From NCBI GenBank assembly GCA_035771165.1, contig JAWNZC010000229.1, forward strand, positions 281,501 to 345,500: a stretch of DNA of 64,000 nt. Reading direction: 5' to 3'. Numbering within the stretch: position 1 is the stretch's first letter; each line of letters starts with the position of its first letter. Origin of the DNA: Paragorgia papillata (taxonomy: Eukaryota > Cnidaria > Anthozoa > Scleralcyonacea > Coralliidae). This document shows, one piece after another, positions 24,901 to 27,900 of the stretch. The notes under the pieces are model-generated. The model was given only the letters and a program-made list of their open reading frames with translations. It had not been told where the DNA came from and did no database searches. The position numbers were made by a program, and so were the translations under genes.

Positions 24901-27900
24901 GTACTTGCATGATCTAATTTAATTATTTGGAAAAGGATCACGATGAATTATTATACGGTTGAAATTTACATTGAAAGTTTTTAATAGTATAATAACCTGA
25001 TTAAAAATTTCCACATTTCTCTTATGACTATATATGATAGAAATTTTAAAATTCTGGCAACGTACTATGAGTATGGTTGAGAATATAACAGTTGTACCAG
25101 TACAGGCGGCCAATCATCACACGACTTGTCTGATACAGCTGACATTGATATCTAAAACGTTTTTTGTGACCATGAAACTTTATTGTTTAAACTTGTTGCT
25201 GTGGTCTTTTTGTGAAATTTCTATAAAAAGACACGATATATTGTTTATCGTGGCAGCATCCCATGCATGGCTTGCATTTTACAGTTTATCATTGGTTAGT
25301 AATATGGGGGGAAAGGTTACTACACCATGCATTCACCAAAATAATGTATATGAAAAGCGTTAGTCAAAATATTAATGGCCTATTAGGCAAGTGTGAGGGC
25401 TGTATATATACAGACTTTGCCCAATAGGCCATTAATATTTTGACTAACGCTTCTTTATATACATTATTTTGGCGAATGAATTTTCCTGGAAAATGTTCCT
25501 TTTTATTCTTTATACACACACACGCACGCGTATGCCAAGGTTACGCCAGAATAATTTTCAGCAGGTAAAAAGTTTGACCTCTGCATGCTTGGGGCTCAAA
25601 AAATCCTGAAAATTTGCAGTTTGAATTGCACACTAATGTTTACAAATCAGATATCCAAGAGCATGCAATGTTTCTTGGAATGCAACCTTTTATCTTATCT
25701 TGTCAGAAATATTAATATCCATGTAATCATTTTGAATAAGACAGTTTAGTTTATAATAGCAAACACATGAGAAGCATGTTTTAAATTATTTCCATAAATA
25801 GAACTGCAGGGGTGTAGGAACCGGGGGCAGAGGGGGCACGTGTCCCACCAACTTTGTCGTGAAGGTACCCTCTCCGTAACAAAAATGTGCCCTTTTCTCA
25901 GTAAAATATGTGCTTCAAATGTCCTTTTGAAGCTGATCTGCCCCCAGCAAACAAAGTGGCCTTTTGAAACTGTGCCTCTCCAACTTAAACTTGCTTCCTA
26001 CGCCACTGTAGAACTGTGTGTTGTTCTAAATCATTGTCGTCTTAAACGATTCCCTATTTTACATACATGTATAGATATCGATGGGAGAAAGATATGTAAT
26101 GTGTATAATGAAAATATTTGTGTTGAAGCATCCTGACGTGCATTGTGGTTTAAAACAAAGTGCAGACAGTTGTGTATTGGTTTAACACTGATCACAGTCT
26201 GTATTTTCTTTGTTGAGGTCGTCCTTTGTCAGAGGCATATCTCATCATCCTCGTATGAACCGTCTTCATCGTCGTACATTTACCTCTCCATTGTAAACCA
26301 ACTAACTGCGTCTTTCGTTAGAGTCGTATTGTATAATTTTATTTGTAAAAAGCACAGCTAGAACAGTAAAAATGTAACATTTCTTATAGGGAATCAAAAA
26401 GTATAATATGCGTTTTTAAATTATCGTAAGGGAGACACCCAGTTGCAGTTGTCGTAATTAATTAACCCCTTAGTCCTATGACTTCGATTAATGTTATAAT
26501 AATAATATTAATAATATTAATAATAATAATAATAATAATAATAATAATAATAATAATAATAATAACAATAACAATAATAATAATAATAATAATAATAATA
26601 ATAATAATAATAATAATAATAATAATAATAATAATTATAAGTAAAGAGATTTCGACTTTTATTGATTGATGATGTTGTAACATGTTTTATGATGATTTGT
26701 TCTGATGTATCCATGCTCCGATTTTGTTGCTAAAATTCATCCCTTTTTGGTCTTGCTATATATCCAAGTATTTATTTAGCTATAATTGTAGTCATGCGCA
26801 TTTAAAATATATATATATGTAATAGATACAGGCTAAAAACGATTAAAATAAAATAATTAATAAACAAAACCTTTTCGACTTCAAGTCATCTTCAGTTTTT
26901 TTACACTGAAGATGAAGTCGAAAACGTTTTCTATTTTATTTTATTTTAATCGTTTTTACCCTGTTAATATATTATATTCTGGAAGCAAACATTATGATAT
27001 AATATATATAATATATATATATATATATATATATATATATATATATATATATATATATATATATATATATATATATATGAGTAAAATATTTTTTTTAAGA
27101 GCGTCTGTCTAGAAATCAGAAGGTCGCGGGTTCGAATCCCGTCAGGGATACTCAGACATTTTTCTGAGTATAAAGCTTGAGAACAAATTTTACTCACATT
27201 ACACCAAGCTACAATTTCAACTAACATTACAACAAGACAAACGACGTGTTTGTGACTTCGAGTATGAAGTTTGCATGTCATGAAACGAACCAGATCGCGA
27301 TTTATCCTTCTCACTACCGTCTGAGTCCCAGTAGCTCAGTCGGTAGAGCGTCTGTCTAGAAATCAGAAGGTCGCGGGTTCGAATCCCGTCAGGGATACTC
27401 AGACATTTTTCTGAGTATAAAGCTTGAGAACAAATTTTACTCGCATTACACCAAGCTACAATTTCAACTAACATATATATATATATATATATATATATAT
27501 ATATATATATATATATATATATATATATATATATATATATATATATATATATATATATATATATATATATATATATATATATATATATATATATATAGTT
27601 CAATCTACAGACACGGTGTTTCGCTGTACAACAGCTCATCAGTGTAGCTTGGAACAATCTGAATGAATTTCATCCATTACTTATACACATGCGATTGTCG
27701 GTGACAACCGCATGTGGGACAGCATCGGTGAAGTACATTCAGATAGCGTGAAGTGCGCATGGGGTCAGAGTGCTCAAACTTCCACAAGGGTAGTGAGCGT
27801 TGCATATATATATATATATGTAATATTTATAAACCGCGCAGGAGGGCTTTATCGGATATAAAACACGAGGCGATAGCCGAGTGTTTTAGAGCCGATAAAG

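Follow-up and report, generated by a model that had tools for sequence, protein, structure and literature searches.

A TA-joined hammerhead retrozyme family of Paragorgia papillata whose insertions end past the ribozyme

Introduction

A window of 64,000 nucleotides from Paragorgia papillata (GenBank assembly GCA_035771165.1, contig JAWNZC010000229.1, positions 281,501 to 345,500, forward strand; hereafter the window) contains, between two runs of TA, a short motif with the layout of a hammerhead ribozyme (HHR). This locus raises the question whether the motif is the ribozyme of a mobile element and, if so, how such an element enters DNA. For metazoan non-LTR retrozymes, Cervera and de la Pena (2020, PMC7229834) demonstrated circular RNA in the tissues of three animals. 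According to the main text of that paper, the circle needs a primer, which is either target DNA or a small RNA, with LINEs or Penelope-like elements (PLEs) as candidates, and the route of animal retrozymes back into DNA is left open there.

Results and Discussion

A long-form type I hammerhead in the window

Every position that the earlier note had assigned to an HHR at 27605-27647 was verified by reading the minus strand, including the order of the core and the stems. The minus strand of 27598-27655 reads GTTC-CAAG-CTACA-CTGATGA-GCTGT-TGT-ACAGC-GAA-ACA-CCG-TGT-C-TGTAG-ATT-GAAC, in which the inner stem I 5′ strand CTACA (27647-27643) is followed by the core CTGATGA (27642-27636), stem II (27635-27623), the core GAA (27622-27620), stem III (ACA/CCG/TGT, 27619-27611), C17 (27610; cleavage expected between 27610 and 27609), and the inner stem I 3′ strand TGTAG (27609-27605). 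The type I order of invariant core and three stems is kept. The 4-bp stem II described before holds, and is also readable as 5 bp (GCTGT/ACAGC) with a 3-nt loop. What had been overlooked is that stem I extends beyond an internal loop (CAAG, 27648-27651; ATT, 27604-27602) into an outer helix, formed by GTTC (27652-27655) and GAAC (27598-27601), the latter also closing the insertion on its 3′ side, next to (TA)n. As this outer stem I is present, the HHR of the window is, judged by its letters, a long-form type I ribozyme and not the minimal form; the stem I internal loop and loop 2, which would make the tertiary contact, are both present. The short stem III pointed out earlier is indeed limited to three pairs, but the comparison with PLEs drawn from it does not stand, because the outer stem I and the internal loop are as in metazoan non-LTR retrozymes (PMC7229834, main text).

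A type I descriptor with strict minimum stem lengths (5 bp for stem I, 4 for stem II and 3 for stem III) matched the window solely at 27605-27647 (minus strand), and matched none of 300 first-order Markov simulations of the window, which bears out the claim that chance formation is improbable. Of the refuting results named along with that claim, the lack of an Rfam score above threshold did occur: at the gathering level no hammerhead was reported in the window (both matches were tRNAs), nor did any exceed the Rfam cut-offs in the family loci L010, L011 and L098. When the cut-offs were lifted, Hammerhead_3 scored 16.1 bits on the window HHR (E 2.4; cut-off 48.5) and Hammerhead_HH9 (RF02275) 16.6 bits (E 0.046 for 81 bases; cut-off 52). 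The HH9 alignment nevertheless spans the whole structure, with the outer stem I strands in its outer helix. Hammerhead_HH9 is a single conserved locus, unlike the dispersed repeat described here. A covariance search alone would reject a hammerhead that other evidence supports. By its Rfam scores this large hammerhead family stays below the cut-offs in every copy scanned, namely those of the window and of three loci.

Another match to CTGATGA...GAAA, at 58233-58256 (minus strand), was dropped as a ribozyme, as by eye stem I is not formed in the window copy; it lies in a palindromic repeat adjoining TA (58180-58335), whose likeness to the hammerhead core is attributed to chance.

A family of 277-bp units

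The host genome (618 Mb) was searched with the 209-bp element as query, giving at least 80 matches (40 of 746 candidates scored). The exact HHR pattern, comprising the core and the stem I 3′ strand, occurs 4,865 times genome-wide, and its reversal not once, so that the further copies for which the earlier note proposed a search do exist. Many copies stand head to tail with a period of 277 bp. At this length an ORF for reverse transcriptase (RT) plus GIY-YIG would not fit, and the GC content of one unit is 46.2%. On sequence grounds, the window element is best classified as a non-autonomous non-LTR retrozyme of the metazoan kind. As in the retrozymes of Cervera and de la Pena (PMC7229834, main text), a type I HHR with a stem I internal loop goes together with a tandem unit in the range of 170-400 nt, a GC content below 50% (here 46%), no room for an RT gene, no LTR seen, a strongly self-paired predicted circle, and the occurrence of both solos and multimers. 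The difference lies in the insertion ends mapped here, with their fixed 3′ end past the HHR, TA joint, and 5′ truncation. The words truncat-, microsatellite and dinucleotide are absent from the main text of PMC7229834, and a literature search, with the 2020 supplement, two PLE-hammerhead papers of 2014 and 2017, and subscription papers outside its scope, found no description of fixed internal 3′ ends or of TA landing.

The family pattern had no match in viral contigs. Five matches in prokaryote contigs were set aside, as they are near chance (an estimated 4 to 5 for a 20-base pattern in that much DNA). One retrozyme relic (L099:421-760, minus strand) lacks the ribozyme core exactly between the two stem I strands; this core-less joint has only 2 exact cases in the genome, both on C337 and probably from one event. 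In L011, retrozyme arrays lie tail to tail across one short TA run.

The window copy and its surroundings

The copy in the window (27598-27805, minus strand) covers 208 of the 277 bp, namely unit positions 82-277 followed by 1-12. As unit positions 13-81 (69 bp) are absent, it is a 5′-truncated solo, whose only HHR would not suffice to free a monomer on its own. The suggestion of a small ribozyme-bearing element thus holds for the family, with its thousands of copies, but the window copy is incomplete and the actual unit is 277 bp. The extent of about 210 bp between TA arrays was accurate: the body runs from 27598 to 27803, or to 27805 if the AT shared with the neighboring TA run is counted. 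On the element's 3′ side lies a (TA)n run (27473-27597), either target or tail, and at the truncated 5′ end a (TA)8 run (27804-27819) with AT microhomology at the joint (27804-27805), followed by the end of another repeat, TE-A (27820-27909). TA runs of 12 nt or more cover 0.85% of the window.

A flank search returned 2,722 matches, and many among the matches listed pair retrozyme with retrozyme. Among these listed matches, the TA run beside TE-A adjoins retrozymes at two other loci, in both orientations. At window 58127, C3:1772500, C320 and C381, TA runs adjoin the same repeat, in some cases with a retrozyme and in others without one, which suggests, short of proof, that the TA run is the insertion target. 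The order of insertion could also have been the reverse, with TE-A entering the TA run of the retrozyme.

A tRNA-related repeat (27098-27475, plus strand; Rfam tRNA, 65.5 bits), in tandem with a spacing of 247 bp, ends in the TA run of the retrozyme, and a related copy lies beside retrozymes in L028. Kinship of the retrozyme with tRNA-SINEs, considered on account of a 10-mer and a 9-mer in common and in the same order, was rejected as too weak, since a shared 10-mer also arose in 201 of 2,000 shuffles and three shared 9-mers in 31 of 2,000. Elsewhere the window contains a long C/T-rich simple-repeat stretch with several frames open (48921-49823) and fragments of several reverse transcriptases (33474-34322, 47139-47723, 3781-4260 and 14678-15463), one of which has an RNase H-like domain.

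Constraint and predicted folding

Variability was counted in the segments from the search with the 209-bp element (121 alignments, one cell being one letter). Only 2 of 1,130 cells were off-majority at the 11 catalytic positions, versus 261 of 19,887 at the 216 positions outside the ribozyme; this low variation of the core would fit selection on the source copies for cleavage, the cells being non-independent.

Folded as a circle, one unit reached -88.6 kcal/mol, compared with a mean of -66.5 for 200 shuffles, none of which was as low (z -4.35). For the window copy folded as a linear strand z was -3.87, and just one of 200 shuffles reached so low an energy. The energy model disfavors the HHR, other folds being 2 to 5 kcal/mol better: the best fold of the isolated region is predicted at -10.8 versus -8.8 kcal/mol for the HHR, and that of the circle at -88.6 versus -83.6 kcal/mol with stems I and II but without the three-pair stem III. 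For amphibian retrozymes with a weak helix III, action as a dimer is described (PMC7229834, main text), and by analogy the same may be possible for the HHR studied here.

Insertions end past the ribozyme, in TA

To map the ends, loci L001-L097 were merged into 63 segments (170 kb) and aligned to one genomic unit, with unit position 1 set to the base after the cleavage site. The alignment comprised 103 blocks, 95 of them at least 60 bp long, and after 6 had been dropped because the flank was too short at the segment end, 89 were usable. The 3′ end lay at unit positions 12-19 in 77 of the 89 blocks, elsewhere in 12, and at the cleavage site in none. These loci were non-random, being the best-scoring matches plus the first places of the list, fetched by the HHR or by the 209-bp element; as this choice excludes solos ending at the cut, exact counts over the whole genome are the better test. 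Ends of the form GTGTCTGTAGATTGAACTATATATA, in which ...GATTGAAC-TATATATA marks a joint to TA 12-15 nt past the HHR cleavage site, numbered 2,792 (exact matches; reversed-pattern control 0). The form GAAACACCGTGTCTATATATA, the product expected in TA from initiation at the end cut by the ribozyme, was found 3 times genome-wide (reversed control 0), counting TA-joined cut ends alone. Thus, the usual start of reverse transcription lies beyond the ribozyme, and starts at the cut end are very rare. Thousands of similar copies fix this usual start with an uncertainty of a few bases and place it away from the end cut by the ribozyme.

The 5′ ends, in contrast to the fixed 3′ end, were spread over 52 positions in the 89 blocks. 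Their distribution was uneven: 11 of 89 lay at position 82, where ATGCAACG meets the TA run, and another 11 at positions 1-17, four of which are repeats of one arrangement on C1. Unit heads were counted 2,388 times in the genome and internal unit junctions (TATGTACGC, form GTGTCTGTAGATTGAACTATGTACGC) 2,227 times, with reversed controls of 0 for both. As this excess of only 161 compares with 2,792 terminal ends, most arrays start with a truncated unit, though exact matching blurs such differences. A TA run of at least 8 nt flanked the 3′ side in 63 of the 77 blocks with the usual 3′ end, and the 5′ side in 51; in 45 blocks such runs stood on both sides and mask any target-site duplication there. 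Less than 4 nt of TA lay right at the 5′ joint in 20 of the 77.

Tandem arrays are homogeneous

The same 77 blocks measured 0.2 to 7.6 units, 48 of them being 300 bp or shorter and 29 longer. The commonest length class was 0.8 unit (14 blocks), with no excess at 1.0 (6 blocks); on C452 a stretch of 26 units was found. In a comparison of 82 arrays with 197 units, the 35 arrays with two or more units showed a mean divergence of 0.76% within arrays, versus 2.8% between the first units of different arrays (3,305 pairs). In 14 of these 35 arrays, rare variants (seen in at most two arrays) were common to all units covering the position. Low divergence and common rare variants within arrays indicate that a whole array appears to be made from one monomer, either during rolling-circle reverse transcription or through local duplication at a later time; homogeneity can also arise by unequal crossing-over.

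Proposed priming on an RNA circle and its rivals

In the reading that we consider probable, a 277-nt RNA circle is reverse-transcribed from a nicked (TA)n strand, which serves as primer at one fixed position inside the circle's sequence, and either a solo or a tandem array results. Judging from the family as a whole, read-through transcripts of tandem copies would be cut by the hammerhead into 277-nt monomers, which would be ligated into circles. The enzyme of a retroelement would open (TA)n DNA, and the nicked TA strand would then prime at a single position within the RNA, located 12-15 nt beyond the site of cleavage. At this place the RNA reads 5′-GAAC-UAUGUA-CGC-3′, and its 5′-UAUGUA-3′ could pair with TATATA, with one G-T wobble; such pairing would explain both the fixed start and the TA landing place. 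The polymerase would travel from less than one to several laps round the circle before dissociating at no fixed position, so that either a truncated solo or a homogeneous array is left behind. The copies themselves show the fixed end, the variable start, lengths above one unit and homogeneous arrays, while the circle, the pairing and the enzyme are inferred.

The numbers of ends (2,792 versus 3) favor this target priming on an internal site. The TA that follows those 2,792 terminal copies would also be expected if insertion were SINE-like, with uncut linear RNA of TA-flanked copies ending in (UA)n, annealing by this tail to (TA)n, and being copied by a LINE. The ribozyme would not be needed for insertion, and in an assay with one PLE insertion indeed required no HHR cleavage, as described in PMC11167929. 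Retrozymes resemble SINEs in being short and 5′-truncated, with a simple repeat on the 3′ side. They differ by their HHR and by multi-unit copies with one end point, and Rfam gave no tRNA-like head in L010 or L011. Near-identical multi-unit arrays with common rare variants need either a matching tandem source or a circle, so that we regard the SINE-like route as unlikely.

Growth as ordinary satellite DNA by unequal crossing-over, with the ribozyme as a passenger, would account for the 26-unit stretch and for homogeneous arrays, but is hard to reconcile with thousands of TA-joined ends at one fixed 3′ position, with variable 5′ truncation, and with core positions being the least variable; it is improbable to a degree well beyond the SINE-like route. 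Least probable of all, and by our estimate very nearly negligible, is a chance motif or a dead relic family devoid of ribozyme function. Rfam scores below the cut-offs and the preference for other folds speak for it; the failure of all 300 simulations to reach the descriptor, the low variation of the core, and the thousands of copies speak against it.

The layout expected from priming on the circle by nicked TA resembles, by analogy, the internal initiation of one PLE, in which reverse transcription starts past the HHR at AT-rich DNA (PMC11167929). HHR-bearing PLEs, as described in PMC11167929 and PMC7761336, share with the retrozyme an HHR upstream of an internal start of reverse transcription, AT-rich targets, and tandem copies. 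The retrozyme, in contrast, has no coding region, a long-form HHR, and a TA-like landing sequence at the start. The PLE start lies in an AC-rich loop in an ORF (PMC11167929, PMC7761336), whereas that of the retrozyme is found 12-15 nt past the cleavage site. Unlike the pairing proposed for the retrozyme, initiation in the assay with the PLE took place at a site without homology to the DNA that had been cut (PMC11167929).

Whether animal retrozymes in general insert by direct target priming on an RNA circle, a nicked TA microsatellite pairing with a TA-like landing sequence just outside the hammerhead and tandem arrays being written in one rolling-circle step, we judge to be evenly balanced. 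In that case the cut and the starting point of reverse transcription would both be marked by the base of the ribozyme, and the family would land preferentially at TA microsatellites. The insertion step is directly testable with purified enzymes.

Search for a partner enzyme

GIY-YIG domains gave at least 104 matches in the genome (150 of 540 candidates scored), and in L098 such a domain is joined to RT. Neither of the two GIY-YIG families examined (L098 and L099) shows the ends of the retrozyme, and among them no enzyme-bearing element with matching ends was found. At L098, a 5′-truncated PLE with RT plus GIY-YIG (1217-3100, minus strand) is nested in a retrozyme. The idea that PLEs normally carry the retrozyme end was rejected: a search with the PLE 3′ part, in which 40 of 138 candidates were scored, gave 59 matches, and among these an alignment beyond position 364 of the 379-position query was confined to L098 itself; the other listed matches that reach the end region stop at 357-364 and the remainder earlier. 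L098 is thus probably a one-off nested insertion. The second GIY-YIG family, L099, has a TA run in its 3′ part. It was discarded as a partner because this run is internal and not a tail, the same sequence following beyond it in 18 of 20 further copies (101-bp pieces); among the copies of this family, L107 and L121 are shortened, and L113 and L114 differ. At five places picked out by eye (L098, L099, and one each on C72, C67 and C3), no more than ∼4 kb separates PLE pieces from retrozymes.
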